Origin: Kineosporia sp. A_224
GTDB lineage: Bacteria > Actinomycetota > Actinomycetes > Actinomycetales > Kineosporiaceae
Length of the DNA: 33,588 nt
Direction: 5' to 3'
Assembly: GCF_002198655.1 (NCBI RefSeq)
Contig: NZ_MWLN01000088.1
Location: 1-33,588, forward strand
The translations under genes were made by a program, and so were the position numbers. Below the pieces are notes generated by a model. That model saw nothing but the letters and a program-made list of their open reading frames with translations. It searched no databases and was not told where the DNA came from. Below are positions 1 through 25,329 of the stretch, in pieces; the first letter of the stretch is position 1, and each line of letters starts with the position of its first letter.

Positions 1-645
1 GCGCCCGCCCCCGCGTCGTCCCCGCGGCCGGCCGCCGGCGGCGCGCCCGAGGTCGCGGTCCTCACGTCGGTCGTCGGCCGGGACGCGGTCCGTGCGCTGA
101 AGGCCTGGCGCCGCGAGCACGGCGCGGGCGCCTCGATGAACGCCACCGTCATGGCCGTCGTCCGGGCCGCGCTGCTCGCCGAGGGCGTCGACCTCACCGA
201 CGGCCTCACCGTCGCCTACGACGACCGGCTCTACCTGCCGCGCGGGGCGGCGGCCCGCGGGAACCTCGTGAGCGCCGTCCGGCTGCAGCCCGCCGACGCC
301 ACCGACCCGGCGTCCGTGCACGGCGCGGTGCAGGCCGCCATGCTCGCCGGCCGGCCGCTCCTCGCGCTCGCGGCCGGCTCGGCCACGGCGGCCCTCGCCC
401 GCCGCCCGCAGTGGCCGGCCCGCCCGGCCCGCGGCGGCTCGGCGGACCTGTCCTTCGCGTGCGTCCGCGTCGACCGGGTGCTCCCGCCGCGGCTGGTCAC
501 CGACCTCGAGGGCGACGTCGCGCTCGTCTGCGTGACGACCCCGTCCTCGCAGGCGTCGGTCGCCGTGATGGTCCTCGACATGGGTTCGGAGCTCCATCTG
601 ACGCTCACGGTGCACAGCCCGCTCGTCGACGTGACGGCGGCCCGG
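1..645 (+). pseudogene. C-terminal half of condensation-domain-like acyltransferase, detached and inverted
   Basis: The plus-strand frame beginning at base 1 reads as the second half of a CAT/condensation-superfamily acyltransferase. A helix like KAWRREHGAGASMNATVMA is followed by a DDRLYLP...GNLVS segment matching the family's D-x-R...GN region, then ADLSFACVRV and a late LTVHSPLVD strand typical of the C-terminus. No start codon belongs to it; the ATG at 136 is internal. No stop codon follows the expected end: the frame stays open to 2694 through antisense of other genes. The complementary N-terminal half lies on the opposite strand at 648-1205, and together they make about 400 residues, a normal family length. 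I infer one gene broken by an inversion or by an inverted chimeric join. Being an independent gene is unlikely. Confidence 0.7.
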
Positions 646-657
646 CGCGCGGCGGGC
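640..657. repeat. 18-bp near-palindrome at the acyltransferase inversion junction
   Basis: The sequence GCCCGGCGCGCGGCGGGC differs from its reverse complement at one symmetric pair only (positions 6 and 13). It lies where plus-strand coding for the C-terminal half ends and minus-strand coding for the N-terminal half ends. Short palindromes of this kind are typical of template-switch or fold-back joins. Confidence 0.6.
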
Positions 658-1205
658 ACGGTGCGCAGCGCCGCGAGGCTGCCGAACCGGTGGCGCAGGG
701 CCGCGGCCAGCGGCCGGTCGACGCCGGCACCGGCGTGCGTCCAGAGCCGGCCGTCCGGGTCCGGGCCGCTGACGAGGGTGCGGAGGATCCCGAGCACGGT
801 CATCGCGTCGCCCCAGGCGTGCGGGATCGTGAAGCCGACCAGGCCCGCACCGCCGTCGGTCGTCTCGTGGGCGAAGACCCGCACCGTCGGGCCGGTGGTG
901 CCCGCGGCGACGAACGCCCGGGCCGCCTCGGCGGCCGCCTCGCGGTCCCGGCCGGGCAGCGCCTCGACGACGAGCGCCTCGGCGCGGGCGAGCGCCTCCT
1001 CGGCGTCGGCCGCGGGCCGCCACGCGTCGGGCCGCTGCGGGTGCGCGGTCCGGAAGAGCGCGCAGCCCGGGTCGGCCTGCGCGGTGGCCCGCAGCACCTC
1101 GCGCACCGTCTCGACGCCCGACGGGTCCGCCGTCGAGACGAAGACGGTCGTGTTGAGCCCGAGCCAGATCCGGTCCCGGCCCGGCATGGTCTCCCAGCCG
1201 TTCAT
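648..1205 (-). pseudogene. N-terminal half of condensation-domain-like acyltransferase
   Basis: The frame starts at ATG 1205, with GGAAGG as ribosome-binding site 7 bases upstream, and begins MNGWETMPGRDRIWLGL. Around residue 130 it has PHAWGDA, which fits the HxxxD catalytic motif of condensation/acyltransferase enzymes (the usual following Gly is Ala here). Homology-like sequence runs to about LAALRTVPAARRAA, near base 640. Beyond that the open frame (to 231) is only antisense of the plus-strand half. The protein probably transferred an acyl group to a glycan or lipid intermediate, judging from the upstream glycosyltransferases and flippase with which it would be co-transcribed. The acceptor and acyl donor cannot be predicted. 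As sequenced it lacks the second half of the fold and should be inactive. Confidence 0.7.
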
Positions 1206-2472
1206 GCCCCACCCTTCCGGCGGCCGTGGCGGTCGCCGACACCTCGCCCGCGGCGGCGGCCGCGAGCACCTCCTCGACCCGGGACGTCGCCCGGGCCACC
1301 GTGAACCGGTCGGCGACCTGGCGTCCCCGCCGGCCCATCCGGGCGCGCAGGTCCGGGTCGCCGAGCAGCGTGTCGATCGCGGTCGCGAGCGCCGCGACGT
1401 CGCCGGGCGGCACGAGCAGGCCGCTGCCGCCGTCCTCGACCTGCTCCGGGATGCCGCCGACCCGGCTCGCGACGACAGGCGCCCCCATGAGCTGGGCCTC
1501 GGTGACCGTCATGGGCAGCGGGTCGGGCCACACCGATGGTGCGACGACGACCGCGGCACGGGCCATCGCGGCCATCACCGCGGCGTGCGGCACGTCGTGG
1601 TGGACGACGACGTCCGGCCCGAGCTCGGCGTCGGACGGCGTGTCGACCTGCCGGGTGCCGATGAGCACGAGCCGCGCCGGCCGCTCGAGCCGGCGGAACG
1701 CCTCGAGCAGCACGTGGACGCCCTTCGCCCGGCTCAGCGCCCCGACGAAGAGGACGACGTCGCCGTCCGGCAGGGCGGGCGGCGCGGTGTGCCGGGCGAG
1801 CAGCGGCAGCCCGTCCGGGACGAACGAGCCGAGCACCTCGACCGGCCGGCCGGTCACCGGGGCGACGACCGGGTCGAGCCGGCGCGCGACGTACTCGCTC
1901 ACCGCGGTGACGTGCGCGTGCCGCAGCAGCGGCCGGCTCGCGCGCAGCCCGACCGCCAGCGCCGCCGAGCGCGGCAGGCCGTACTGGGCGCTGCCGCAGA
2001 GGATGCAGGCCCGCAGGTCCGGGCCGGCGCAGGGCGTCCCCTCGCGGGTCATCGTCTTGCGGTGGCACGCGAGGCCGTAGTCGTGGGCCTGGACGACGAC
2101 CGGCACGCCGAGCGAGCGCGCGACGGGCAGCATGGAGAGCACGTTCCACGAGTGGGCGTGGACGACGTCCGGCCGGGTCTGCTCGACGATGCGGCGCATC
2201 GCGCGCATCATCCCGGGGTCCGGCGCGGTGGGGTGGAAGGGCCGGTCGGCGCTGGCGTAGAACGGTTTCAGCAGCGTGTGCTGCCAGCCGGTGACCCGGT
2301 GCACGACGGCACCGTCGGTCTCGAGCCGGCCGGCGGGTGCGCTGCCGGTGGCGCCGGTGACGACGTCGACGGTGTGGCCGCGGTCGGTGAGGGACCCGGA
2401 GAGGATCTCCACGAACCGTTCGAGGCCGCCGATGACCGGCCAGTACAGGTCGGTGAGCTCGAGGATCCTCAT
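1206..2472 (-). CDS. GT4-family glycosyltransferase, stop codon missing
   Basis: Start ATG 2472 has AGGAGG five bases upstream and overlaps the flippase stop in an ATGA. The N-terminus MRILELTDLYWPVIGGLERF is the usual GT-B opening with a GG loop for the nucleotide-sugar donor. Near the C-terminus, about residues 310-320, APSVWPDPLPMTVTEAQLMG is the donor-binding E-x7-E region, with Asp at the first position (D-x7-E). Natural length is about 422 residues. The frame does not stop there: it stays open to base 1. A TGA overlapping the next gene's ATG (1202-1204) lies in the neighbouring frame and would be reached by one extra base in the run of four C at 1207-1210. The probable role is sugar addition to a lipid-linked glycan on the cytoplasmic side; the sugar is unknown. 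Confidence 0.85.
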
Positions 2473-3821
2473 GAGACCTCCTGGGCCGCAACGGGTCCGG
2501 CGGCGGGCGCGCGGAGCACCCGGACGACGTCCCGCAGGCTCGCGAGCATGCCGAGGCTCTGCGCGAGCGCCCAGGCGTACCCGACGCCGACGATCCCGAC
2601 CCGGGGTGCGAGGACGACGGTGCCCGCGATCGTCACGACGGCCATCCCGAGGTTGAGGGTCGCCGACCGGGCGAGCCGGCCGGTGGCCCGGTAGACGCCG
2701 ACGGCGACGTTGTTCACCGCGTCCGGCAGCGCCGCGACGACGAGGACGACGAGGAGCAGGTAGCCCTCGCGGGCGTAGTCCTCGCCGATGACCGACAGCG
2801 CGAACCGGCCCCCGACGAGCATGAGGACGGCCGGGCCGACGAGCAGGATCCCGATGAGCCGGGCCGCCTTGCGGGTCGCGACGGGCAGGTCGGCGCCGCG
2901 CGCGCCCTCGGCGAACAGCGCCGACGAGACCGCCGGCGCGACGATGAAGAACAGGCTGCCCATGAGCCAGGTCAGCGCGAAGTACGCGTTGTCCACCGGG
3001 GTCAGCAGGGCCGCGACGAGGGTCGGCAGCACGTACGGCGTGAGGACGCCGCCCGCGCTCGTCAGGTGGTGCCCGGCGGCGCTGCGCAGGCCCGAGAGCC
3101 CGGGCCGGACGAACCGCGGCCGGCCCGGGGAGAAGCCGGCCCGGGGCAGCTGCCACGCGAGCGTCGCGACGCAGCCGAGCGTCGCCGACGCCGCCCACGC
3201 GACGAGGATCGAGCGCGGCCCGCCGAACGCGGTGAGCGCGAGGCCGCCGAGCATCCCGAGCTTGAGCAGGCTGATCGCGACGTTCTGGGTGGACAGGAGC
3301 TGGGACCGGCGCAGCGACACGAACGTGTACATGAGCACGTTCATGACGCTCCAGGCGGCGCACCCGACGACGAACGCGACCGTGCCGGTCACGGTGTCGA
3401 CGGCGGGGCCGACGGCGTCGGTGCCGCGGCCGACGGCCACCGCGACCGCCGCGACGACGGCGGAGACCGAACCGGTGAGGGCGAGCGCCGTCCACAGCCG
3501 GGCGCCCCAGCCGTCGGTGCCCTCGTACCGGGGCAGCCGCTCGATCGTCAGCGCGGCCGGGCCGAGGTGGACGACGAGCGACAGCGCCGTCGCGAGCGAG
3601 ACCGCGGCGTTGCCGACCCCGACCTCGCCGGCCGCCCAGCGGTGCGCCGCGAGCGCCCAGAACACGTACCCGAGCCCGCCCGTGAGCACCGTCGCGAGCA
3701 TGATGTGCAGGCTCGAGTGAACGAGCGCCCCACCCTCCTGCCCCGCACTTACTAGCGCGTCTGACCCACTTTTCGGGTCATACGCGCTAGTAACTGCGGG
3801 GGTGTCACTCCGGGCTGGCAC
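2469..3821 (-). CDS. Wzx/MATE-type polysaccharide flippase
   Basis: This is a protein of up to 450 residues with about 12-14 hydrophobic helices, starting with MLATVLTGGLGYVFWALAA and ending with GIVGVGYAWALAQSLGML, in the arrangement of Wzx/RfbX-type exporters of the MOP superfamily. It would flip the undecaprenyl-linked glycan made by the adjacent glycosyltransferases. The upstream start is GTG 3821, because GGGAGGAGG lies six bases before it and it overlaps the preceding gene's stop by 17 bases. That start makes a 61-bp palindrome (3741-3801) code for part of the N-terminal tail, with A/T-ending codons (aaa, agt, cta, gta, tca) that are rare in this window. A start at ATG 3701 would exclude the palindrome and still keep the first helix. 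The family call is firm and the start is not. Confidence 0.85.
   Translation of the reverse strand: MPARSDTPAVTSAYDPKSGSDALVSAGQEGGALVHSSLHIMLATVLTGGLGYVFWALAAHRWAAGEVGVGNAAVSLATALSLVVHLGPAALTIERLPRYEGTDGWGARLWTALALTGSVSAVVAAVAVAVGRGTDAVGPAVDTVTGTVAFVVGCAAWSVMNVLMYTFVSLRRSQLLSTQNVAISLLKLGMLGGLALTAFGGPRSILVAWAASATLGCVATLAWQLPRAGFSPGRPRFVRPGLSGLRSAAGHHLTSAGGVLTPYVLPTLVAALLTPVDNAYFALTWLMGSLFFIVAPAVSSALFAEGARGADLPVATRKAARLIGILLVGPAVLMLVGGRFALSVIGEDYAREGYLLLVVLVVAALPDAVNNVAVGVYRATGRLARSATLNLGMAVVTIAGTVVLAPRVGIVGVGYAWALAQSLGMLASLRDVVRVLRAPAAGPVAAQEVS
3741..3801. repeat. 61-bp palindromic element (27-bp arms, 25 of 27 matching)
   Basis: The left arm 3741-3767 and right arm 3775-3801 are inverted copies with two mismatches, around a 7-base centre acttttc. 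The shared core is TTACTAGCGCGT, then one variable base, then TGACCC. It is much richer in A/T than the flanking genes. It sits between the GT4 stop (3805-3807) and the first flippase membrane helix, inside the flippase frame if GTG 3821 is used. As RNA it would form a very stable hairpin. It may be a dispersed palindromic (REP/MITE-like) element, an attenuator, or a processing site that sets the flippase level. There is no T-run typical of a terminator. Confidence 0.85.
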
Positions 3822-5004
3822 GGTTGGCCTCCTCCCGGCCGGGGGGCGTCCGCGGGGGGCCGGGGACGACGCCGTCGGCGATGCGCAGGTCGAGGACGAC
3901 CTCGACCTCCTCGTCGGCCGGGCCGGCGGGGCCTCCGACGGCGCTCCGGTAGACGGCCTCGAGCTGCCGGGCAGCGCCCTCCCACGTCGGCAGGTCCGGC
4001 GCGGCGGCCGGGGCGACGTCGGACAGGGCTCGGACGACGGCCCCCGCGAGGGCGACCGGGCCGCCGTCCGCGGGCCACAGCCGGACCCCGCCGCCGACGA
4101 GCGTGGCGACCTCGGTGTGCGCGGGGATGTCGCTCGCGACGGCCCGGCAGCCGGCCCCGACGCCGTCGAGCAGCGCCATCCCGAACGCCTCGCGGGACGA
4201 CGGCTGCACGCAGACCCGGGCCCGGAGCAGGAGGGCGTCGAGCTCGGCGTCGCTCACGGTGCCGGCGAAGGTGATCCGGTCGGCGAGCCCGAGACCGGCG
4301 GCGAGCGTCTCGAGCTCGGCGCGCTGCGGGCCGGCGCCGACGACGACGCAGCGCCACGGGCCGTTGACCATCGCGAGCGCGCTGACGAGGACGTCGACCC
4401 GCTTGTACTCCTCGAGCCGGGAGACGCAGACGACGAGCGGCTCGCGCCAGTGCGCGGGCAGGACCTGCGAGGTGTCGAGCGGGCGCACGCCGTTCGGGAC
4501 GACGCGCACCCGGCCGCGCTGCTCCGGGAACGTCGTGACGAGGTGGTCGGCCTCGGCCCGGCTCACACAGACGACGGCCGCGGCCAGCCGCAGCGCCGAC
4601 CGGACGAGCGGGCGGTAGACGAGGTGCGCGAGCCGGGCGAGCGTCCCGTGCCCGTCGCCGTGGAAGTGCGTCGTGACGACGACAGGACGCCGGCACCGGC
4701 TGCGGAGCACCGCGAGCGGCAGCGGCGAGTGGTAGTTGTGCACGTGGACGACGTCGTGCTCGGCCGCGAGCGTGCGCACCGTGCGGCGCAGCCGGCGGGC
4801 GACGAGGAACGGGCCGACGACCCGCCCCGGCACCCGGAGCACCTCGACCTGACCCGCGCGCGGGCCGCTCGCCGTCCGTGCGTCGAGGCTGAGCACCGTC
4901 ACCGAGTGGCCGCGGGCGACGAGCGCCGCCGACAGCGCCTCGACGTGCCGCTCGACGCCGCCCGGCGTCGGCGGGTAGGCCGGCGTGACCTGGAGGACCC
5001 TCAC
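3805..5004 (-). CDS. GT4-family glycosyltransferase
   Basis: A 399-residue GT-B enzyme starting GTG 5004. The N-terminal half carries MRVLQVTPAYPPTPGGVERH and a VHVHNYHSPLPL segment. The C-terminal half carries VVCVSRLEEYKRVDVLV, a VVVGAGPQR donor-side loop and SSREAFGMALLDG. In the last, the second Glu of the family's E-x7-E is Asp. A tail of about 50 residues after the fold is acidic then proline-rich and not conserved in appearance. It lies 11 bases after the GT2 gene and overlaps the flippase start, so it is probably co-transcribed and coupled. The likely role is a sugar transfer in assembly of the glycan exported by the flippase. Donor and acceptor cannot be read from sequence. Confidence 0.9.
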   Translation of the reverse strand: MRVLQVTPAYPPTPGGVERHVEALSAALVARGHSVTVLSLDARTASGPRAGQVEVLRVPGRVVGPFLVARRLRRTVRTLAAEHDVVHVHNYHSPLPLAVLRSRCRRPVVVTTHFHGDGHGTLARLAHLVYRPLVRSALRLAAAVVCVSRAEADHLVTTFPEQRGRVRVVPNGVRPLDTSQVLPAHWREPLVVCVSRLEEYKRVDVLVSALAMVNGPWRCVVVGAGPQRAELETLAAGLGLADRITFAGTVSDAELDALLLRARVCVQPSSREAFGMALLDGVGAGCRAVASDIPAHTEVATLVGGGVRLWPADGGPVALAGAVVRALSDVAPAAAPDLPTWEGAARQLEAVYRSAVGGPAGPADEEVEVVLDLRIADGVVPGPPRTPPGREEANRASPE

Positions 5005-5014
5005 CTGCCCTGCC

Positions 5015-5887
5015 TCAGGAGGTCAGGTCCCCCGCCCGGGCACGCGTGCGAGCACGCGTGACCCGGACGGGGGCCTGGGAGCGCCGGGCCGCCACCCGGC
5101 GCCGCTCGGTGAGGATGGTGCGGAGCACCCGCAACCCGTCGCTCACGGCGTTGAGGTTGCTCACGCCGTGGATGCGGGGCCACTCGACGCTGCCCACCTC
5201 GGTGAAGCGCGCACCGGCCGCCGCGAAGCGGACGGTGAGCATGGTCTCGATCTCGAAGCCGTCGCCGTTGACCGACGTCCCCGCGGGGATCGACGGGTCG
5301 ACCGTCGCGGGCAGGTCGAGGACGGGGAGCATGTCCGCCCAGAAGGCGACGTAGCCGTAGCAGAGGTCGCTGTGCCGGGCGCCGTAGAGCACCCGGACCG
5401 CGAGGTTGAGGCCGGCGTTGCCGAGCCGGCGCACCCGGGTGATGTCGTGACTGCTGCCGCCGTGGCCGAACCGGGTGCCCTTGGCGACGTCTGCGCCGGC
5501 GACCAGGGCCGCGACGAACGCCGGGATCTCGCCCGGGTCGGCGGAGCCGTCGGCGTCGAGCATGACGACGATGTCGCCCGTCGTCGCCTCGAACCCGCAG
5601 GCCAGCGCGTTGCCCTTGCCGCGGCGGGTCTGGTGCACGACCCGGATCGACGGGAGCACCTCGCGGGCGACCTCGACGGTGCCGTCGACCGAGCCGCCGT
5701 CGACGAGGATCACCTCGTGGAGGCCCTCGGGCAGCCGGGTGAGCACGTGCGGGAGGTTGCGGGCCTCGTTCCGGGTCGGGACGACGACCGTCACCCGCGG
5801 GGCCGCCGAGCGGTGCGGGCCGTCGGCGACGGCCGCCCGGTCCGGGGGCGCAGCCTCGGTGTCGACGCTGTGTCCGATATGTGGCAC
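5015..5887 (-). CDS. GT2-family glycosyltransferase (DPM1/GtrB-like)
   Basis: A 290-residue GT-A protein starting GTG 5887, with AGGAG six bases upstream. It shows VTVVVPTRNEARNLPHVL, VILVDGGSVDGT (donor-binding Asp), a basic RRGKGNAL loop and VMLDADGSADPGEI, whose D-x-D binds metal and nucleotide-sugar. This is the pattern of polyprenyl-phosphate sugar synthases and related GT2 enzymes. No C-terminal membrane helices are present; the tail is Arg-rich (TRARTRARAGD) and could bind membrane phosphate. As first gene of the cluster it may make a polyprenyl-phosphate sugar donor or add the first sugar. The gene faces the divergently transcribed sigma factor. Confidence 0.88.
   Translation of the reverse strand: MPHIGHSVDTEAAPPDRAAVADGPHRSAAPRVTVVVPTRNEARNLPHVLTRLPEGLHEVILVDGGSVDGTVEVAREVLPSIRVVHQTRRGKGNALACGFEATTGDIVVMLDADGSADPGEIPAFVAALVAGADVAKGTRFGHGGSSHDITRVRRLGNAGLNLAVRVLYGARHSDLCYGYVAFWADMLPVLDLPATVDPSIPAGTSVNGDGFEIETMLTVRFAAAGARFTEVGSVEWPRIHGVSNLNAVSDGLRVLRTILTERRRVAARRSQAPVRVTRARTRARAGDLTS
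5041..5060. repeat. Two CACGCGTG palindromes, 4 bases apart, in the GT2 C-terminus
   Basis: CACGCGTG occurs at 5041-5048 and 5053-5060 with CGAG between. It lies in the Arg-rich C-terminal codons of the GT2 gene just before the next gene's start. It could be a binding site or hairpin, or simply a product of Thr-Arg-Ala-Arg codons. Confidence 0.4.
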
Positions 5888-6122
5888 GTGGAGCTCCTGA
5901 AGTCGCGATGGTCGTGCGGTCTCCAGGCTGCGGTGCCGGGACCCCTCCCTCGTCCCCTCCCCGGGGACACGGCGTCAACACACCCCACCAACGCAGATTG
6001 TTTCATCGACAGTTGGTGAGATCTGCGTCTCCAAGCGGGTGACGTCTCGGTGAAACGTGACGCTGCGTCAATGGGTGTTGGTACGAATGCCGTACCGGTT
6101 CGGGTACGGAGGGGGCGCACAG
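5888..6122. promoter_or_regulatory. Divergent intergenic region between glycan cluster and sigma factor
   Basis: These 235 bases must hold the promoters of both the minus-strand glycan cluster and the plus-strand sigma gene. Visible elements are a TTGACG hexamer on the minus strand (5978-5973) without a convincing -10 partner; an inverted repeat ACGCAGAT (5991-5998) / ATCTGCGT (6021-6028); and a second inverted repeat CCGTACC (6090-6096) / GGTACGG (6103-6109) that reaches the sigma gene's ribosome-binding site. The region is less G/C-biased than the genes. No promoter can be assigned with confidence. Confidence 0.6.
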
Positions 6123-7750: not shown

Positions 7751-8557
7751 TCAGGCGAGGAGCAGCTCCCAGGTGCCGGCCGCGACGCCCGCGGCCGTCG
7801 CGGCCGCCGCGATCGCGACCCCGCCTGCGACGACGACGGCGTCGGCGGGGCCGAACCGGCTGGGCCGGGCCCAGGTCCGGTGCGTCACCGCGCCGAAGCC
7901 GCGGGACTCCATCGTCGTCGCGAGCACCGTCGCCCGGCGCAGCGCGAGCACGAGCAGCGCGAAGACCCGGGCGACCGCGTCCCGGACCCGGCCGACCGGG
8001 CCGCCGTCGCCGAGCCCGCGGGCCCGGCGGGCTGCGGTGAGCGCCTGCCACTCCTCGGCGAGCACGCCGAACAGGCGCATCGCCGCGAGCGCCGACAGCA
8101 CGAACCGGTGCGGCAGCCGCAGCCGCTGCGCCAGGGCGTCGGCGAGGTCGGTCGGGTCGGTCGTCGCGAGGAGCACGACGCCGGGCAGCCCGATGGCGAG
8201 CACCCGCAGGCTGATCGCGACGCCGGCCTGCAGGCTGCCCTCGGTGACGGTGACCGGTCCGGCCCCGACGAGGACCGCCCCGGCGTCGACGCCGAGCAGC
8301 GCCGTGGCGACCCCGGCGGGGACGGCACCGGCGAGCAGCACCCAGCCCCGGCGGAGCAGCCCCCGCGGGCCGACGCCGCACCACGGCAGCGCGAGCAGCT
8401 CCAGGCCGAGCGCGGCGCCGGCGGTCACCGGGTCGACCGTGAGGAGCAGCGCGAACGCGACGAGGCTCGCCACGGCGAGCTTGGCGACCGGGTTGGCCCG
8501 GGCGACCGGCGCCCGCAGGTCGACCCCGACCGGGGCGTCGAGCGCGGGGGCGGTCAT
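7751..8557 (-). CDS. ECF transporter T component (EcfT/YkoC-like)
   Basis: A 268-residue membrane protein with about 5-6 helices. It carries the two A-R-G-type signatures of EcfT coupling helices: TAARRARGLGDGG (about residues 176-188) and ATTMESRGFG (about 216-225). These contact the two ATPase domains. It overlaps the ATPase gene in an ATGA, so synthesis is coupled. It joins YkoE (substrate binding) and the fused ATPase to form an energy-coupling-factor importer. The riboswitch upstream points to thiamine or its hydroxymethylpyrimidine precursor. The usual symbol in Bacillus is ykoC; assignment here is by position and family. Confidence 0.9.
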   Translation of the reverse strand: MTAPALDAPVGVDLRAPVARANPVAKLAVASLVAFALLLTVDPVTAGAALGLELLALPWCGVGPRGLLRRGWVLLAGAVPAGVATALLGVDAGAVLVGAGPVTVTEGSLQAGVAISLRVLAIGLPGVVLLATTDPTDLADALAQRLRLPHRFVLSALAAMRLFGVLAEEWQALTAARRARGLGDGGPVGRVRDAVARVFALLVLALRRATVLATTMESRGFGAVTHRTWARPSRFGPADAVVVAGGVAIAAAATAAGVAAGTWELLLA

Positions 8558-10158
8558 GCCGCCCCGACCGGCACCGGCGCCGGACGGCCCTGCGCGAGCC
8601 GCAGGACGTCGTCCGCGAGGGCCTCGACGAGCCGCTCGTCGTGGGTCACCGCGACGACGCCGGTGCCCCCGGCGACGAGGTCGGCGAGCAGGTCGACGAG
8701 CTCGGCCCAGGTGCGCGAGTCCTGCCCGAAGGTCGGTTCGTCGAGCACGAGGAGCCCGGGGCGGGTCGCGAGCACGGTGGCGACGGACAGCCTGCGCTGC
8801 TCGCCTCCGGAGAGCGTGAAGGGGTTGGCCCGGGCGAGATGCCCGAGCCGCAGCCGGGTGAGGAGCTCGTCGACCCGGCGGGCGGTCTCGGCCTCCGGGA
8901 CGCCGGTGCGCCGCGGCCCGACGGCGAGCTCGTCGGCGGCCGTCGCCGCGACGAACTGGTGCTGCGGCTCCTGGAAGACGGTGCCGATCCGGCGGACGAG
9001 CTCACGCGGCCGCCAGGCCGCCGGGTGCGGCGACCTGACGCCGTCCGCGAGCCGGCCCCGGGCGGTGACCGTGCCCGCGGCCGGTGCGACGAGCCCGGCG
9101 AGGGCGAGCGCGAGGCTCGACTTGCCCGCGCCGTTCGGGCCGACGACGCACGTCGTCCGCCCGGCGTGCAGGTCGAGGTCGACGTCGGCGACGGCGGAGA
9201 CGGCCCGGCCGGGCCGCCGCACGGCGACCCCGCGCGCCTCGAGCAGCACGTCCCCCGCACCGTGATCCGCCGTCGTCGACCCGGTCCCGGGTGCGGACCC
9301 GGGATCCGGTCGATCGGTGCGGATCTTCGCGGGGGCGAGGCGCCCGGCGACCGGGAGGTGGCCGGGGACCCAGACCCCGGCCGCGGCGAGCGCGGCGCCG
9401 CGGGCGCGCAGGACGTCGTCCGGCGTGCCGTCCGCGACGACACCGCCGCCCGGTTCGAGGACGACGACCCGGTCGACGAGGTCGAGCCACGGCCCGACGC
9501 GGTGCTCGACGAGCACGCACGTGGCACCGGTCGCGGCGAGGACGGCGGTGACCGTCTCGCGCAGGAGCACCGCGCCGTCCGGGTCGAGCATCGCCGTCGG
9601 CTCGTCGAGCAGGAGCAGCCCGGGCCGCAGCGCGAGCACCCCCGCGAGCGCGAGCCGCTGCCGCTCCCCGCCCGACAGCCGCGACGTGAGGTGCCCGCGG
9701 CCGTACGGGAACGCGACCCCGGCGAGCGCGGTGTCGACGCGCTCCCAGATCCGGCCGGGCGGCACGGCGTGGTTCTCCAGGCCGAACGCGACGTCGTCGC
9801 CGCACCGCGCGAGCACGGTCTGGGCGAGCGGGTCCTGCAGGAGCAGCCCGCTGCGCGCCTGCCCGGCCCGGACGCCGTCCACCCGCGCCGTGCGGGCCGG
9901 GACGCCGTCGAGCAGGAGCGCGCCCTCCTCGTCGCCGGTGCCGTCGTCCGGACCGGTGCCCGGGTCGAGCAGCCCGGCCAGCCCGGCGAGCAGCGTCGAC
10001 TTGCCGGAGCCGCTCGGGCCGAGCAGCAGCACCCGCTCGCCCGGCGCGACGTCGAGGTCGACGCCCCGGACCGCCCAGGCCTTGCGCGCGGAGTGCCGCC
10101 ACCCCCAGGCCCGGGCCCGGGCCCGGACGGCGACCGGCTCGGTGCGGGGGTCGGCCAC
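8554..10158 (-). CDS. ykoD: Fused double ATPase of ECF transporter (YkoD-type)
   Basis: A 534-residue protein with two complete ABC ATPase domains in one chain. Domain 1 has Walker A LLGPSGSGKSTLL, signature SRLSGGERQRLAL and Walker B LLLLDEPTAMLD. Domain 2 has VVGPNGAGKSSLAL, Q-loop FQEPQHQF, FTLSGGEQRRLSV and LLVLDEPTFGQD. Both sites look catalytically complete, though domain 2 has Gln-Asp where many have Leu-Asp in the D-loop. It starts GTG 10158, the base after the ykoE stop codon, and ends overlapping the EcfT start. It powers uptake of the substrate captured by YkoE. The fusion of both ATPases is the known YkoD arrangement. Confidence 0.93.
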   Translation of the reverse strand: MADPRTEPVAVRARARAWGWRHSARKAWAVRGVDLDVAPGERVLLLGPSGSGKSTLLAGLAGLLDPGTGPDDGTGDEEGALLLDGVPARTARVDGVRAGQARSGLLLQDPLAQTVLARCGDDVAFGLENHAVPPGRIWERVDTALAGVAFPYGRGHLTSRLSGGERQRLALAGVLALRPGLLLLDEPTAMLDPDGAVLLRETVTAVLAATGATCVLVEHRVGPWLDLVDRVVVLEPGGGVVADGTPDDVLRARGAALAAAGVWVPGHLPVAGRLAPAKIRTDRPDPGSAPGTGSTTADHGAGDVLLEARGVAVRRPGRAVSAVADVDLDLHAGRTTCVVGPNGAGKSSLALALAGLVAPAAGTVTARGRLADGVRSPHPAAWRPRELVRRIGTVFQEPQHQFVAATAADELAVGPRRTGVPEAETARRVDELLTRLRLGHLARANPFTLSGGEQRRLSVATVLATRPGLLVLDEPTFGQDSRTWAELVDLLADLVAGGTGVVAVTHDERLVEALADDVLRLAQGRPAPVPVGAA

Positions 10159-10947
10159 TCAGACCCGCTCGGCCGTGCGGCCGGACGCCAGCGGCGCGAG
10201 CGCCCCGGTCCGGGCCAGGGCCTTCGTCAGGTACGCGGAACCGACGCCCGCGATCACCGCCCCCGAGAGCATCGCCAGGGCGACGTACACGATCTTGTAG
10301 CCGGCGGAGAAGGTCGGGTAGTAGATGAGCGAGTCCATGAGCCCGACCGCGACCCCGGCGCCGAGGCCCGCCCCGATCGCGGCCCCGAGACCGAACCGGC
10401 GGTAGAGCAGGACCGCGAGGACGAACTCCGCGCCGAGCCCCTCCACGAGGCCGTACCAGACCGTCGCGAAACCCCACTGGTTGCCGATGAACGCCGAGAT
10501 CGTCGCCGCGACGAGCTCGGTGTAGACGGCGGCGCCGGGCTTGCGGACGACGAGCCCGCCGAGCACGGCCGGCAGCAGCCAGACCCCGACGAGGACCGCC
10601 GACGCCGGCGGGTAGAACGCGAGCGCGCCGGAGGCCGCGGGCCAGACGGCGACGTTCCAGACGGCGAAGAGCAGGCCGCCCGCGACCCCGAGCACCGAGG
10701 CGACGACGAGGTCGACGACGCGCCACGTCGTCCGGGTCAGGACGGCGGCGGCGAGCGCGGTGCCGGCGAAGGCGACGAACAGCGCCGCGGGCAGGGTGAG
10801 GTCGGCGAGCGGGGTGCCGAACAGGCTCACCGAGGCGGGCAGCCCGACGAGGTAGACGGCCAGGCCGAGGGCGGCGGCGGCGCCCGTGGCCGCCACGACG
10901 CGGGGGTCGCGCGCAGGCAGGTTCGATCGCGGGTCGGTGGTGCTCAT
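10159..10947 (-). CDS. ykoE: ECF transporter S component YkoE (thiamine/HMP)
   Basis: A 262-residue membrane protein with about 6 helices. Recognisable stretches are ISAFIGNQWGFATVWYGLVE and AEFVLAVLLYRRFG, with conserved aromatics (W, Y) that suit thiamine-like ligands in this family. I chose ATG 10947 because GGGAGGA lies six bases upstream; an in-frame ATG at 10998 falls inside the regulatory leader. It is the first gene of the ykoE-ykoD-ecfT operon, behind a TPP riboswitch. It is membrane-embedded and binds the vitamin from outside. The family assignment rests on sequence pattern plus riboswitch; thiamine versus HMP specificity is not resolved. Confidence 0.9.
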   Translation of the reverse strand: MSTTDPRSNLPARDPRVVAATGAAAALGLAVYLVGLPASVSLFGTPLADLTLPAALFVAFAGTALAAAVLTRTTWRVVDLVVASVLGVAGGLLFAVWNVAVWPAASGALAFYPPASAVLVGVWLLPAVLGGLVVRKPGAAVYTELVAATISAFIGNQWGFATVWYGLVEGLGAEFVLAVLLYRRFGLGAAIGAGLGAGVAVGLMDSLIYYPTFSAGYKIVYVALAMLSGAVIAGVGSAYLTKALARTGALAPLASGRTAERV

Positions 10948-10952
10948 GTGGT

Positions 10953-10974
10953 CCTCCCGAAGAACTTCAGGAGG
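10953..10974 (-). promoter_or_regulatory. Hairpin covering the ykoE ribosome-binding site
   Basis: On the transcribed strand CCTCCTGAA (10974-10966), a GTTC loop, and TTCGGGAGG (10961-10953) form a 9-bp stem with one G-U pair. The 3' arm is the ykoE Shine-Dalgarno sequence. This would block ribosome access and is the probable expression platform of the upstream riboswitch, so control is likely translational. A GC-rich hairpin at about 10982-11005 lies between and may be part of the switch. Confidence 0.75.
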
Positions 10975-11014
10975 GGAGCCGGGGGCGTCTGACGCCACCG
11001 GCCGAGAAACGGCT

Positions 11015-13005: not shown

Positions 13006-14199
13006 TCAGCGGACGAGCACCGGCTCCGGGACGCCGCCCACGACGACCCCGACGACGAGCGGCACCCCGGGCCGGTACGCGAGGTGCACGAAGGACGGTG
13101 CGTCGAGCACCGCGAGGTCGGCGCGGGCCCCGGGCCGGACGACACCGACGTCGGTCCGGGCCAGGGACGCCGCGCCGCCGGCCGTCGCCGACCAGAGCGC
13201 CTCGGCCGGCGTCATCCGCATCTCCCGCACCGCGAGCGCGACGCAGAACGGCATCGACGACGTGTACGAGGAGCCGGGGTTGCAGTCGGTCGCGAGCGCG
13301 ACGGTGACCCCCGCGGCGAGCAGTCGGCGCGCGTCCGGGTACGGCGAGCGGGTCGAGAACTCGGCGCCCGGCAGCAGGGTCGCGACGACGCCCGCGTCCC
13401 GCAGCGCCGCGACGTCCGCGTCGGCGAGGTGGGTGCAGTGGTCGGCCGAGACCGCCCCGAGCTCCGCCGCGACCTGGACCCCCGGCCCCTCGCCGAGCTG
13501 GTTCGCGTGCACCCGCACGAGCAGGCCGCGTGCCGCCCCGGCCCGGAGCACCGCCCGGGCGGCGTCGGCGTCGAAGGCGCCGCGCTCGCAGAACACGTCG
13601 ACCCAGCGGGCGTGCGGTGCGCAGGCGTCGAGCATGGGGCCGGTCACGAGGTCGACGTAGCCGGCCGGGTCGTCGGCGTACTCCGGCCCGACGACGTGCG
13701 CGCCCAGGTAGGTCGTCTCCGGCGTGAGCGTGCGGGCGACGGCGAGGCTGCGGGCCTCGTCGTGCGCGGTGAGCCCGTAGCCGGACTTGATCTCGACCGT
13801 CGTCGTGCCCTGCCGCCGCATCTCGGCGACGAGCCGGGACGCGTTGGCGTGCAACGCCTCGTCGCTCGCCGCCCGGGTCGCGGCGACCGTCGTCCGGATG
13901 CCGCCCGCGGCGTACGCGGTGCCGGACATCCGCGCCTCGAACTCGGCCGCCCGGTCACCGCCGAACACGAGGTGCGCGTGCGCGTCGACGAACCCGGGGA
14001 CGACGGCCCGGCCGCCGAGGTCGAGCACGGTGTCCGCCGCGGGCGCCGCGGCGGCCGGGCCGACCCAGGCGACGGTCGCGCCGTCGACGACGACGGCGGC
14101 GTCCCGCACGACGTGGACGGGCGCCGGGCCGGCGCCCTCGGCGTGCGGGTCGTTCGTCACGAGCTCGCCGATACCGGTGAGCAGGAGCGCAGGGGCCAT
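13006..14199 (-). CDS. hutI: Imidazolonepropionase
   Basis: A 397-residue amidohydrolase that opens the ring of 4-imidazolone-5-propanoate to N-formimidoyl-glutamate, the third step of histidine breakdown. It shows the metal-binding [14 protein letters not shown], the family-specific [14 protein letters not shown], a His in [18 protein letters not shown], and the catalytic [15 protein letters not shown]. Length matches known HutI. Start ATG 14199. Unlike the usual arrangement it is not next to hutF; five unrelated genes lie between. Tandem 12-bp repeats lie directly upstream, and no copy of the hutH operator is seen there. Confidence 0.95.
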
Positions 14200-14211
14200 C
14201 CCCGCACCGTA

Positions 14212-14271
14212 GCCACTGCGACGGCCACTGCGACGGCCACTGCGCCGACCACTGCGCCGACCCCTGTCGCC
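14212..14271. repeat. Five tandem 12-bp repeats between hutI and mmuM
   Basis: The unit GCCACTGCGACG is repeated exactly at 14212 and 14224, then with drift at 14236, 14248 and 14260. The array fills most of the 90-base gap between two divergent starts, so it overlaps whatever promoters serve hutI and mmuM. Copy-number change would alter promoter spacing. Confidence 0.85.
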
Positions 14272-14289
14272 GCCCGGGATGATGGAGGC

Positions 14290-15249
14290 ATGGCCCGGAC
14301 CCCCTCAGCCCCCCTCGCCGACGCCCTCGCCGCCGGCCCGGTCGTCCTCGACGGCGGCCTGTCGACCCAGCTCGAGGCGATGGGCCACGACATCTCCGGA
14401 GACCTGTGGTCCGCGGTGCTCCTGCGCGACGCCCCGGACGCCGTCCGCGCCGCGCACGGGGCCTTCGCCGCGGCCGGGGCCCGGGTCGCGATCACGGCCT
14501 CGTACCAGGCGACGTTCGACGGCTTCGCCGCCGCGGGCATCGACCACGCCGAGGCCGAGCGGCTCATGCGGCTGTCGGTGCGCCTGGCCCGGGAGGCGAC
14601 GGACGCCGCGTTCCCGGCCGGCGGCGGCTGGGTCGCCGGGTCGGTCGGCCCGTTCGGGGCGATGCTCGCGAACGGCGAGGAGTACACCGGCGCGTACGTC
14701 GACCCGACCTGGGCGGGCCGCACCGGCGGCGGGCTCACGGCGGCCGAGCTGACCGCGTGGCACCGCCCGCGGATGGAGGTGCTCGCCGACGCCGGTGCCG
14801 ACCTGCTCGCCTGCGAGACGGTGCCCGCCGCGGCCGAGGCGGAGGCGCTCGTCGCGGCGCTCGACGCCCTCGGCGTCCCGGGCTGGATCTCGCTGACGAC
14901 CTCCACCGGCCCGGACGGCGTCGCGCGCACCCGCCGCGGCGAGGACGCGGCGTCCGTCTTCGCGCTCGCGAAGGGGGTCGACGCCGTCGTCGCCGTCGGG
15001 GTCAACTGCACCGACCCGGCCGGGCTGCCGGCCGCGATCGAGGCGGCCGCCGCGGCGGGCAAGCCCGTCGTCGTCTACCCGAACAGCGGCGAGACGTGGG
15101 ACGGCGCGGCCCGGGTCTGGCGCGGCACGCCCGACTTCGCCGAGGACGACGTCACCGCCTGGGTCGCCGCCGGCGCCCGGCTCGTCGGCGGCTGCTGCCG
15201 GGTCGGCCCGGCGCAGGTCGCCGGCATCGCCGCCGCGCTCGCGCCCTGA
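14290..15249 (+). CDS. mmuM: Homocysteine S-methyltransferase
   Basis: A 319-residue zinc enzyme that moves a methyl group from S-methylmethionine (or S-adenosylmethionine) to homocysteine to give methionine. The N-terminal [15 protein letters not shown] is the homocysteine-binding domain start. Zinc ligands are the Cys in VGVNCTDP and the Cys pair in [10 protein letters not shown]. Other family blocks are [18 protein letters not shown] and [12 protein letters not shown]. The length is typical of MmuM/YbgG. ATG 14290 is preceded by GGAGG only one base away, which is too close for normal use, so initiation may be leaderless or unusual. It is monocistronic and convergent with the oxidoreductase downstream. 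Confidence 0.92.
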
Positions 15250-15265
15250 CCCTGGACGGCGCCGG

Positions 15266-16342
15266 TCAGGCGCTGCGCCGAGCGATCTCCTCGCGGACGA
15301 CGGGCGCGACCTTGGTGCCGAACAGCTCGATCGAGCGCAGCACGGCCGCGTGCGGCATCGTCCCGAGCGCCGTCTGCAGGTTGAACCGGGTCATCCCGAA
15401 GATCTCGTGAAGGCGCAGCAGCTTCTCGACGACCTCGTCCGGGCTGCCGACGAGCAGGTGTCCGCGCAGCGTCCGGCCCTCCTCGTAGGCCTCGCGGCTC
15501 ATCGGGGCGAAACCGCGCTCGCGCCCGATCCGGCCCATCGTCGTCGAGTACGGGCCCCAGAACGTGTCGGCGGCGGCCTGCGAGGTGTCCGCGACGAGGC
15601 CGTGCATCCCGACCCCGAGCGGCAGCGGGTCGTGGTCGCTGCGGCGGGCGGCCTCGCGGTGCAGCTCGGCGAACGGCGCGAACCGCTCGGGCTCGCCCCC
15701 GATGATCGCGAGCATCATCGGCAGGCCGAGCGCGCCGGCCCGGACCACGGACTGCGGCGTCCCGCCGACGGCGATCCACACCGGCAGCTCGGTCTGCACC
15801 GGCAGCGGCCAGATCCGTTGGCCCGCAAGGGCTGCCCGGTGCCGGCCCTGCCAGGTGACCGGCGCCGGGCCGCCGTCGGACGGCGCCGCACCCGTGCCGG
15901 CGGCTGCGGCGGCGTCACGCAGGTCGAGGAGCAGGTCGAGCTTCTCGGTGAACAGCTCGTCGTAGTCGCCGAGGTCGTACCCGAACAGCGGGAACGACTC
16001 GACGAACGAGCCGCGCCCGGCCATGATCTCGGCCCGCCCGCCGGAGACGAGGTCCAGCGTCGCGAACTGCTGCCAGACCCGGACCGGGTCCTCGCTGGAG
16101 AGCACCGTGACCGCCGTCTGCAGCCGGATCCGCGACGTCCGGGCCGCACCGGCGGCGAGCGCCACGACGGGTGCGGACGCGAGGTAGTCGGCGCGGTGGT
16201 GCTCGCCGAGGCCGAAGACGTCGAGCCCGACCTCGTCGGCGAGCACGATCTCCTCGACGAGGTCCGTCATCCGCTGCGCGTGCGCGGCACGGCCGCCCGC
16301 GGGGTCGACGTCCGCGAAGGTGTACAGCCCGAGTTCGATCAC
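15266..16342 (-). CDS. LLM-class flavin-dependent oxidoreductase
   Basis: A 358-residue luciferase-like TIM-barrel protein. It begins [17 protein letters not shown] and shows [37 protein letters not shown], a GRGSF...[15 protein letters not shown] region and a C-terminal [13 protein letters not shown]. These match the group of monooxygenases that use reduced FMN supplied by a partner reductase. The start GTG 16342 overlaps the MFS stop (GTGA), so it is the last gene of the TetR-MFS-LLM operon. The substrate is unknown; with an exporter and TetR regulator it may modify a xenobiotic or natural product. Confidence 0.9.
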
Positions 16343-17610
16343 CCGGCCAGCCTCTCATCCGCGAGGACCGCGACCGGCCGGCGGTCCGCGGTGACGTCGT
16401 CCGGGCCCGCCGCGACCGGCCGCGACACCCGGCCCTGCACGCCGCGCCACACCACCGGCAGGGACGCCGTGAGCAGCGCGGACACGACGGCGACGGCGAC
16501 GAACGGTACCCACGGCGCGATCGCGAACAGCCCGCCGGAGACGGCCGCCGACGCCGCGATCGCTGCGGTCTGGATGCTCGCGAACAGGCCCATGGCCCGG
16601 CCGGCACCGGCATCCGGGGCGGCCTCCGCGAGCAGGGACTGGGCCGCCGGCATCGCCATCGCGACACCGACCGACTCCAGCGCCCCGAGGCCGATGAGCC
16701 AGGGCAGCGACGAGATGAACGGGTAGATCACCGCGAAGACGATCGACGAACCGATCGCGCCGATGACGAGCACCCGCCGGTCCCGGTGGTCGGCGAGCCA
16801 GCCCGCGAGCGGGGTGACGACCACGAACGGGATCGCCCAGAGCGTCCAGGACAGGCCGATCTGCCACTCGACGGCGCCGCGGTGGTCGAGCAGAAGGGTC
16901 CATGTCGCGTCGTACACGCCGGTGAGGACGCCGCCGACGACGGCCGCGACGAGCACCCCGACGAGGACGCGCCCGCGCCGGCCGGTCCAGTCCAGGCGGG
17001 CGGCCGCGGCGTCCGCCGCCTCGGCGGCACCGGTCGGCCGCAGCCGGGCGAGGAGCACCGGGACGCCCGCGAGCAGCGCCCCGAGCGAGGAGACGACGAA
17101 CAGCTCGGCCATGTTCCGCAGGCCGACCAGCGTGCCGAGGATCGGGCCGATCGCGACGCCGGCGAGCTCACCGCCGTAGACGGCGGCGAAGGCCCGGCCG
17201 CGCAGGTCCGCGCGGACCGAGCGGGCGACGAGCGCGAGCATCGCGACCTGGGCGCCGCCGGCGAACGCGCCCTGCAGGCCCCGCAGCACGAGGTAGCCGG
17301 GGCCGCTCACGTCGAGGAGGAAGCCGAAGCTCGCGACGGCGTAGCCGACGAGCCCGACGAGGAGCACGGTGCGGTGCCCGATCCGGTCGCTGAGGCGGCC
17401 GGCGAGGTACTGCGCGACGAACGCGCCGACGAAGTACGCGGCCATGACGGCGCCGATGAGGCCCTCGGAGCTGCCGCGGTCCTTGAGGAACAGCGGGAGC
17501 AGGGGCAGGACGGCGGCGGCGCCGGTCCACTGCAGGAAGCTCGCCGTGGCGAGGGCCGCGACGACGGCCTTCGGCGACGACGCCACGGGGGCGGAGGTCT
17601 GGGAGCTCAT
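16339..17610 (-). CDS. MFS transporter
   Basis: A 423-residue protein with 12 predicted helices in two halves. It carries the MFS loop 2-3 signature as [19 protein letters not shown] and its counterpart in the second half as [17 protein letters not shown]. It resembles drug and metabolite exporters of the 12-helix group. It starts ATG 17610, two bases after the TetR stop codon, and overlaps the following oxidoreductase gene. Regulation by the upstream TetR protein is likely. The substrate cannot be deduced, and export rather than import is inferred from family resemblance. Confidence 0.88.
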
Positions 17611-17611
17611 C

Positions 17612-18169
17612 TCACTTCACCATCTCGAGCAGTCCGGTCCGGACCGCGGAACGCATCTGCGGGCTCAGGGCGTCGATGCCGAAGAGCTCGCACAACCACA
17701 GGCCGTCGGCGGCGAACCGGGCGATCGTCGCCGCGACGGGGTCGACCGAGTCGGTCTCGATCTCGTGCTGCCAGCCGGCGAAGGCCTCGCGGAGCGTCCC
17801 GAGCAGCTCGGGCTGGCTGGCGATCGCGGCGATGAGGGCGGAGCCCACCCGCTCGGTGCGCAGGTCGTCGTCGGTGACGGGCTCGGCGAGGCACTCCTCG
17901 ACGTACGCGCGGGCGAACTCGCCGGGCTCGGGCCGCAGGTCGCGGTGCGCCCGGATGCCCTCCTCGAACCGGCCGGTGAGCCGCTCGACCATGGCCTCGA
18001 CGAGGGCGTCCTTCGTGCGGAAGTGGTAGAGCACGCCGCCCTTGCTCATGCCGGCGCGCGCGGCGGCCTTCTCGAGGGTGAGGCAGGAGACGCCGTCGGT
18101 GAGGACGACGTCCTCCGCGGCCTCGAGGATGCGGTCGCGGGTGCTCACGGTGGTGCCGGCGGTGGCCAT
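17612..18169 (-). CDS. TetR-family transcriptional regulator
   Basis: A 185-residue repressor. The N-terminal helix-turn-helix is RDRILEAAEDVV...CLTLEKAAARAGMSKGGVLYHFRTKDALVEAM, a textbook TetR DNA-binding domain. The C-terminal ligand domain includes PELLGTLREAFAGWQHEIE and is less conserved. I chose ATG 18169. It begins 8 bases from a perfect 24-bp palindrome and is the first gene of the TetR-MFS-LLM operon, so it probably represses itself and the two downstream genes until an inducer binds. Effects on the divergent glycosylase gene are possible. Confidence 0.93.
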   Translation of the reverse strand: MATAGTTVSTRDRILEAAEDVVLTDGVSCLTLEKAAARAGMSKGGVLYHFRTKDALVEAMVERLTGRFEEGIRAHRDLRPEPGEFARAYVEECLAEPVTDDDLRTERVGSALIAAIASQPELLGTLREAFAGWQHEIETDSVDPVAATIARFAADGLWLCELFGIDALSPQMRSAVRTGLLEMVK

Positions 18170-18176
18170 GCCGAGT

Positions 18177-18200
18177 ACTGTACCGTCCGGACGGTACAGT
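18177..18200. promoter_or_regulatory. Perfect 24-bp palindrome, probable TetR operator
   Basis: The half-site ACTGTACCGTCC is followed directly by its exact reverse complement GGACGGTACAGT. It lies just upstream of the TetR start codon and within 100 bases of the divergent glycosylase start. Length, symmetry and place fit a TetR dimer or dimer-pair site that overlaps the promoter. Confidence 0.85.
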
Positions 18201-18297
18201 CGCCTTCCGATATCCCCCGTCCGGCCCCACGCGGCCGTGGCGTCCCACGACCCGGGCGGCCGCCCGGCCTGTCGGGGCTCTCGGCGATGCTGGAGCC

Positions 18298-19194
18298 GTG
18301 CAGACCGTCCGCGTCGACCTGTCCTTCCGGCCACCGCTCTTCCCGGACAACCTCTACGGGCACCTCGCCGCGACGGCGGTGCCCGGCGTCGAGGAGTGGC
18401 GGGACGGCGCGTACCGGCGCACCCTGCGGCTGCCGGGCGGCGCCGCGGTCGTCACGCTGCCGCTGCCGGCGGACGGCGCCACGCATGTCGCGGCGACCCT
18501 GCACCTCACCGACCCGCGCGACGAGGCGGCTGCGGTCGCGCACTGCCGCCGGATCCTCGACCTGGACGCCGACCCCGCCGTCGTCGACGGGCACCTGCGC
18601 AAGGACCCGGTGCTCGCGCCGCTCGTCGCCGCGGCGCCCGGGCGGCGCGTGCCCGGCTGCCCGGACGCGGCCGAGTTCGCGGTGCGCGCCGTCCTCGGCC
18701 AGCAGGTCTCCACGGCCGCCGCCCGCACCCACGCCGGCCGGCTCGTCGTCGCCCACGGCGAGCCCGTCACCGACCCGGACGGCGGCCTGACCCACCTCTT
18801 CCCTACCCCTGCCGCGCTCGCGACGCTCGACGAGGAGGCGCTGGCCCTGCCGGGGACCCGCCGCCGCACCCTCGTCGGCCTCGTCGCGGCGCTCGCGTCG
18901 GGGCAGGTCCGGCTCGGCGGCCAGGGCGGCTGCCGGGCGGGGCTCGACGCCTTCGCCGACCTCCCGGGCATCGGCCCGTGGACGGTCGAGTCGGTGGCGA
19001 TGCGGGCTCTCGGCGACCCGGACGCCTTCCTGCCCGGCGACCTCGGCGTCGCCGTCGCGGCGAAGGGTCTTCGCCTTCCCTCGACCCCCGGCGCGCTCAC
19101 GGCCCGCGCCGAGGCCTGGCGGCCGTACCGCGCCTACGCCGTCCAGCACCTGTGGGCGACGGGCGCCCACGCGGTGAACCTGCTGCCGGCCTGA
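18298..19194 (+). CDS. DNA-3-methyladenine glycosylase II (AlkA-type)
   Basis: A 298-residue helix-hairpin-helix DNA glycosylase that removes alkylated bases. The C-terminal half carries EFAVRAVLGQQVSTAAARTHA, the HhH motif LPGIGPWTVESVAMRALGD and the catalytic Asp in FLPGDLGV. The N-terminal half is the AlkA-type beta domain (RVDLSFRPPLFPDNLYGHL). Unlike many actinobacterial homologues there is no fused Ada-like regulatory domain. The start is GTG 18298, with a poor ribosome-binding site. The TetR operator region is shared upstream, and the 3' end forms a hairpin with the hutF 3' end. Confidence 0.88.
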   Translation: MQTVRVDLSFRPPLFPDNLYGHLAATAVPGVEEWRDGAYRRTLRLPGGAAVVTLPLPADGATHVAATLHLTDPRDEAAAVAHCRRILDLDADPAVVDGHLRKDPVLAPLVAAAPGRRVPGCPDAAEFAVRAVLGQQVSTAAARTHAGRLVVAHGEPVTDPDGGLTHLFPTPAALATLDEEALALPGTRRRTLVGLVAALASGQVRLGGQGGCRAGLDAFADLPGIGPWTVESVAMRALGDPDAFLPGDLGVAVAAKGLRLPSTPGALTARAEAWRPYRAYAVQHLWATGAHAVNLLPA

Positions 19195-19215
19195 GGCCCG
19201 CCCCCGGACCTCAGG
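19190..19215. terminator. Short bidirectional hairpin between alkA-type gene and hutF
   Basis: CCTGAGG (19190-19196) pairs exactly with CCTCAGG (19209-19215) around a 12-base loop. The plus-strand stop codon TGA (19192-19194) lies inside the left arm, and the hutF stop (19216-19218) begins right after the right arm. The whole gap between the two convergent genes is 21 bases. Confidence 0.55.
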
Positions 19216-20565: not shown

Positions 20566-20653
20566 GACGGCGATCCTCCCGCACATCGGGGGCGGCCCGC
20601 GACGCCGTGGGCCGATCGGTTCCCGGCCGCAGGGACGGGCACGACGGCCGCGC

Positions 20654-21937: not shown

Positions 21938-21939
21938 CC

Positions 21940-25241: not shown

Positions 25242-25242
25242 G

Positions 25243-25265
25243 GGTCCAGGGCACACCCTGGGACC
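25243..25265 (-). promoter_or_regulatory. Hairpin directly upstream of hutH start
   Basis: The core CCAGGG/CCCTGG stem with a 4-base loop extends with GGTCC/GGACC flanks (one bulged base). It ends one base before the hutH ATG, where a ribosome-binding site would be. It may be a second protein site or a translation-controlling hairpin. Confidence 0.5.
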
Positions 25266-25297
25266 GTTCTCGGTCACCGACCGCCACGCGGAACATG

Positions 25298-25311
25298 TCT
25301 GGTATCCCAGA
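25298..25311. promoter_or_regulatory. HutR-like operator upstream of hutH
   Basis: TCTGGTATCCCAGA sits in wider arms TGTCTGG (25296-25302) and CCAGACA (25307-25313). From memory, the IclR-type regulator HutR of Corynebacterium recognises TCTGwwATwCCAGA. This site agrees at all positions except two w positions that are G and C. It is 57 bases upstream of hutH. No hutR gene is in the window. Confidence 0.65.
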
Positions 25312-25329
25312 CAAGTGACGACGGGGGGT

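Follow-up and report, generated by a model that had tools for sequence, protein, structure and literature searches.

Organization of the locus

The window, by which we mean the whole stretch of DNA analyzed here (33,588 nt), is the entire contig C230 of the Kineosporia sp. A_224 draft genome (242 contigs, 7,196,381 bp). Its first 1205 bases carry an acyltransferase-like gene in two halves that lie on opposite strands, described below by reference to Kineosporia sp. R_H_3 (G002), in particular its contig C8 (NZ_MWLL01000105.1), and to a groundwater metagenome-assembled genome (G001, JACRAB010000308.1). The features at this end of the contig are as follows.

1..4, no strand: contig start within a P/A-rich linker; the R_H_3 alignment begins at base 5
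5..651, plus strand: C-terminal half of the acyltransferase-like gene, inverted relative to R_H_3 (93% identity to R_H_3 C8 2259-1616, opposite strand; 93% protein identity)
638..651, no strand: junction, 14 nt fitting both the end of the N-terminal half and the end of the inverted C-terminal half (base-by-base comparison with R_H_3)
640..657, no strand: near-palindrome of 18 nt within ordinary N-half coding sequence (16/18 positions self-complementary; identical at R_H_3 C8 2313)
638..1205, minus strand: N-terminal half of the acyltransferase-like gene with the HxxxD motif PHAWGDA (colinear with R_H_3 C8 from 2311 up; 95% protein identity over residues 1-192)
1202..2472, minus strand: GT4-type glycosyltransferase gene, upstream of the N-terminal half (GT4-type Pfam families matched above their cut-offs by the intact copy in G001)
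3805-5004: second GT4-type glycosyltransferase gene (Pfam)

The N-terminal half is an open frame on the minus strand that starts with the ATG at 1205, opens MNGWETMPGRDR and has PHAWGDA inside it. The stops of both halves are misplaced, the N-half frame continuing to a stop at 231 and the C-half frame to 2694. This is the arrangement given in the initial annotation, which was made from the letters alone and had placed an N-terminal half with PHAWGDA on the minus strand from 1205 and a C-terminal half on the plus strand from base 1, neither of them stopping as expected; the open reading frames, the colinearity of the N-terminal half with R_H_3 and the inverted match over window positions 5-651 bear it out.

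In the upstream GT4-type gene, a run of C at approximately 1211-1214 is shorter by one base in the window than in both G001 and G002, and the frame consequently runs past its stop; in G001, the frame ends in a TGA that overlaps the ATG of the next gene. The one-base difference is either a consensus error near the contig end or a real frameshift. The GT4 label that the initial annotation gave to this gene holds, given the Pfam matches of the G001 copy. A surface-polysaccharide cluster is plausible from the presence of two GT4-type genes. Further into the window, positions 7751-10998 carry what appears to be an ECF transporter set of the cobalt type (by Pfam, CbiQ, an ABC_cobalt permease and an ABC ATPase that contains two ABC stretches), and the amidohydrolase-family genes at 13006-14199 and 19216-20697, together with a urocanase within 21940-25314, suggest a histidine-degradation cluster (13006-25314).

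The gene is intact in a close relative

Each half of the gene was searched against 58 genomes, the window's own among them. Own genome aside, close matches to either half were confined to the same genus: the N-terminal half matched R_H_3 (95% identity) and G001 (98% over residues 1-87), and the C-terminal half matched R_H_3 (93%), with weak matches in genomes G006 and G043. In R_H_3, the gene is intact. The two halves (1613-2878 of C8) share the minus strand and a single uninterrupted frame of 442 codons, which begins at 2878 and whose stop codon ends at 1550, and the gene adjoins the same GT4-type gene as the N-terminal half of the window. The initial annotation had pointed to related genomes as the place where a whole gene might stand beside the GT4-type gene, and the 442-codon R_H_3 gene does so. 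The G001 contig, like that of A_224, stops inside the acyltransferase-like gene. In G006 and G043, the diverged homologues likewise combine the two parts within a single frame (30% and 32% identity, respectively, over chosen ranges within the frames). No homologue was seen in which either half stands by itself, the case named at the outset as one that would overturn a split gene: R_H_3, G006, and G043 all have both halves in one frame. The reading that the window contains two separate opposite-strand genes that resemble halves of one protein by chance is scarcely credible: we found no point in its support, and it is refuted by the one-frame homologue of R_H_3, with the diverged homologues of G006 and G043 in agreement.

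Window positions 638-6000 are colinear with R_H_3 C8 2311-7678 at 95% identity, and the net arrangement relative to R_H_3 is a 647-nt inversion in the window. Two stretches of the R_H_3 gene have no counterpart here, namely 2260-2310 (51 nt, the linker) and 1615-1550 (the 3'-terminal 66 nt of the gene). The early description of the halves as one complete protein of about 400 residues is thus right as to a single protein, but the intact length is 442 residues and the window is without these 51 and 66 nt. Differences from R_H_3 at codon positions 1, 2, and 3 number 2, 4, and 16 in the N-terminal half (189 codons) and 6, 5, and 26 in the C-terminal half (202 codons), that is, third positions account for 16 of 22 and 26 of 37 differences, respectively. 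This pattern is what would be expected of a gene under constraint and kept intact until recently.

Identity of the encoded protein

The intact 442-residue R_H_3 protein matched no Pfam family above cut-off, no NCBIfam family and no PDB sequence, and a profile built from three sequences gave a single chance-level hit against the PDB. TraB_PrgY_gumN was considered as a family for the intact protein and rejected, the Pfam match falling below cut-off (E 0.0052). The His129 and Asp133 residues of the HxxxD motif are invariant in 3/3 aligned homologues. Wax ester synthase/DGAT-like HxxxD acyltransferases have a fold of two CoA-dependent acyltransferase-type domains. The G043 homologue matches Pfam WS_DGAT_cat weakly (E 0.0056, 16.9 bits versus 23.6 needed), and neither the G006 homologue nor the intact 442-residue protein matches that Pfam family. 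An AlphaFold model computed from the single sequence was unusable (mean pLDDT 36.9). On the basis of the conserved motif, the protein is likely an HxxxD acyltransferase.

The junction

In the base-by-base comparison, window positions 638-680 fit the N-terminal half of R_H_3 at every position shown, and the fit of the C-terminal half to R_H_3 extends as far as 651, the overlap containing a single mismatch. The overlap of 14 nt (638-651) thus agrees at 14/14 positions with the N copy of R_H_3 and at 13/14 with the C copy. The intact R_H_3 gene itself contains a 13/14 inverted match, its two members 681 nt apart, at exactly these ends.

Such a match is consistent with a real and fixed inversion of approximately 650 bp in A_224, which would have occurred at the 14-nt inverted microhomology and inactivated the acyltransferase-like gene. 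We consider this unlikely. A study of Salmonella confirmed five of the seven inversions that it tested, required at least 12 bp of inverted microhomology for true ones, and regarded long microhomology at a junction as a sign against an artificial chimera, a rule by which, as far as the cited passages of that study go, 14 nt would denote a real event (PMC3411829). However, the window holds 10 pairs of exact inverted 14-mers that lie 300-1000 nt apart, so that in this GC-rich DNA a 14-nt match is not rare and singles out no pair. The upstream GT4-type gene, which lacks a base present in both relatives, might be read as part of a decaying operon, whereas the substitutions in both halves of the acyltransferase-like gene still look constrained.

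The near-palindrome at 640-657 is where the initial annotation had the two halves meet. It is indeed self-complementary at 16 of 18 positions, but the homology junction is 638-651 and the palindrome was not made by the join. Its candidacy as a recombination site was ruled out, since it is found unchanged in the intact R_H_3 gene at 2313 and the window contains 48 such 18-mers; the stress laid on it at the outset was misplaced, and this ordinary and common kind of coding sequence carries no weight in what follows.

We also considered a reversible switch beside the GT4-type genes, in which flipping of the C-terminal half, in the absence of long inverted repeats, would turn the enzyme on or off. 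The geometry is compatible: within a coding region, short inverted matches flank the inverted segment. Nonetheless, we judge it very improbable: the inverted match in R_H_3 is only 13/14 nt and lies within coding sequence; the A_224 assembly contains one orientation only; the sole R_H_3 copy is intact; and no recombinase family was found by Pfam among 24 window translations, a set that covers part of the genes and may include some that are not true genes.

Contig breaks around the inverted piece

The inverted piece is flanked by contig breaks. One is base 1 of C230, and the other is the start of A_224 contig C49, which opens with the sequence that lies downstream of the gene in R_H_3, near G002 position 1465 and approximately 150 nt past the other end of the piece. 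Contig breaks thus coincide with both ends of the inverted piece, which argues against a fixed inversion. The product predicted downstream on C49 matched no Pfam family above cut-off. The first 14 nt of C49 are, by eye, the reverse complement of R_H_3 at that place; we did not count this start as a foldback, since it gave fewer than 12 nt in the test against its own sequence.

R_H_3 positions 1466-1615 and 2260-2310 were covered by none of the 43 A_224 matches listed. Narrower searches of A_224 with R_H_3 1456-1635 and 2235-2335 (40 candidates scored each) returned six and nine hits, respectively, which were chance-like (74-91% over 30-92 nt) with the sole exception of the window's own 638-662, and the missing stretches were on this ground not found elsewhere in A_224. 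Their GC contents in R_H_3 are 84% and 88%, and assembly is evidently difficult in this region.

The A_224 genome was obtained from a Nextera XT library sequenced on a NextSeq 500, assembled with SPAdes 3.10 (k up to 99) and extended and scaffolded with SSPACE, and scaffolds of at least 2,500 bp were binned (PMC5552984); the shortest scaffold is 2,712 bp. Because binning took scaffolds of at least 2,500 bp, small contigs that possibly contained the missing pieces would be absent from the record. R_H_3 was assembled by the same procedure (PMC5897805).

Inverted pieces at other contig ends

We compared the first bases of contigs (60 at most, starting at position 1-3) with the reverse complement of the sequence within 1.5 kb. 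Sixty contig starts of A_224 were scored (62 of 242 sampled, two skipped for N), and overlapping interior windows of the same stretches served as the control. Foldbacks of at least 15 nt were found at 8/60 contig starts versus 0/839 interior windows in A_224, and the same test on R_H_3 gave 2/41 contig starts versus 0/573 interior windows. The start of the window itself scored only 8 nt.

As the control is also compatible with contigs that end at natural hairpins, the three longest of the eight A_224 foldbacks (C31, C40, and C47) were compared with relatives. The body of C40 (42-2805) is colinear with G002:C184 and its bases 1-55 are inverted; the body of C47, from 36, is colinear with G002:C16 and its bases 1-47 are inverted. 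In these two of the three compared, the inverted tails of approximately 46-55 nt are absent from the relative at that place, and inverted tails at other contig ends may count against a fixed inversion at the window's end. In the third, C31, the inverted repeat is common to A_224 and to G002:C65, which also begins there, and some contig ends may accordingly be natural hairpins. A junction length common to C40 and C47 was considered and dropped: BLAST ranges hint at overlaps of at most 14 nt, which the base-by-base view shows to be imperfect. The tails of C40 and C47 are shorter than the 647-nt piece of the window and, unlike that piece, repeat sequence present elsewhere in their own contig. The window is therefore not the same artifact as these foldback tails in the strict sense, being longer and non-duplicating and having a start that scores 8 nt.

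Other contig starts showed features of their own. C31 1-199 and G002:C65 1-185 open their contigs in both genomes with an inverted repeat of about 55 nt around a loop of about 89 nt, and the opposite-strand match of 1-185 suggests that the loop lies in opposite orientations in A_224 and R_H_3. C43 starts with a perfect hairpin (1-49; 21-nt arms) of about half GC, poorer in GC than its surroundings, possibly a terminator or the end of a mobile element. The first 80 bases of C3, C36, and C58 contain a similar hairpin with CCTCTGAGGTA or CCTCAGAGGTA, which may be a dispersed repeat at which the assembly breaks.

Discussion

We conclude, with a probability of roughly 0.88, that the split gene results from an inverted chimera or a mis-join at the end of the contig and that the real A_224 genome most likely carries an intact gene of approximately 442 codons, colinear with the relative. 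An assembly error is favored because the close relative has the gene whole and because other contig ends of A_224 show inverted pieces. An inverted chimera from amplification or assembly had been the preferred reading of the initial annotation as well, and it now gains support from the intact sister gene, the breaks on both sides and the inverted tails elsewhere. We infer that the join is most likely artificial, and by what route, from the order of the pieces, the breaks, the short shared junction, the intact relative and some inverted tails.

In this chimera or mis-join, sequence would have been lost in two very GC-rich stretches that flank the C-terminal half, one being the linker and the other the 3' end of the gene plus what follows, and the loss of these flanks would have left the C-terminal half between two breaks. 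The short inverted match of approximately 14 nt between the end of the N-terminal half and the end of the C-terminal half would then permit a wrong join. By one route, a foldback molecule would form, its 3' end annealing on its own strand to give A-B-rc(A), the other strand of which reads A-rc(B)-rc(A). By a second, the wrong join would be made in the extension and scaffolding step. With the onward path from B lost, an assembler could lay B either way round, and the contig would stop where the inverted piece re-enters the sequence adjoining the N-terminal half. The foldback route would fit the geometry.

Two studies bear on these routes, each as far as the passages cited here extend. Among chimeras from multiple displacement amplification (MDA), over 85% were inverted and over 70% were primed at matches of 2-21 nt, figures that describe MDA data, whereas the window's assembly derives from Nextera XT; self-priming of hairpins was excluded as a major MDA route, which counts against the present reading (PMC1855051). 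Hairpin-derived chimeras arise in library end repair with FFPE material, again a setting other than Nextera XT (PMC8674242).

Inverted pieces occur at contig ends of the A_224 draft and, more rarely, at the sampled ends of the R_H_3 draft, which came from the same pipeline; an apparent inversion or split gene at an end of this kind should therefore not be taken as biology without reads. If the inversion were real, a gene that still looks conserved would be inactivated or switched.

Compared with the intact R_H_3 gene, the window is alike in its halves (93-95% protein identity) and in the colinear GT4-type neighbor, whereas the R_H_3 gene has its halves on one strand and its linker and stop present. 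With the wax ester synthase/DGAT-like acyltransferases (WS_DGAT_cat), the window's protein has the HxxxD motif in common; a difference is that the intact 442-residue protein gives no match to this Pfam family. The window resembles inverted (foldback) chimeras in that a short inverted match, located at a contig end, links two parts of the same region in opposite orientations. What sets it apart from them is the inverted piece, which is 647 nt long and duplicates nothing of its own contig.
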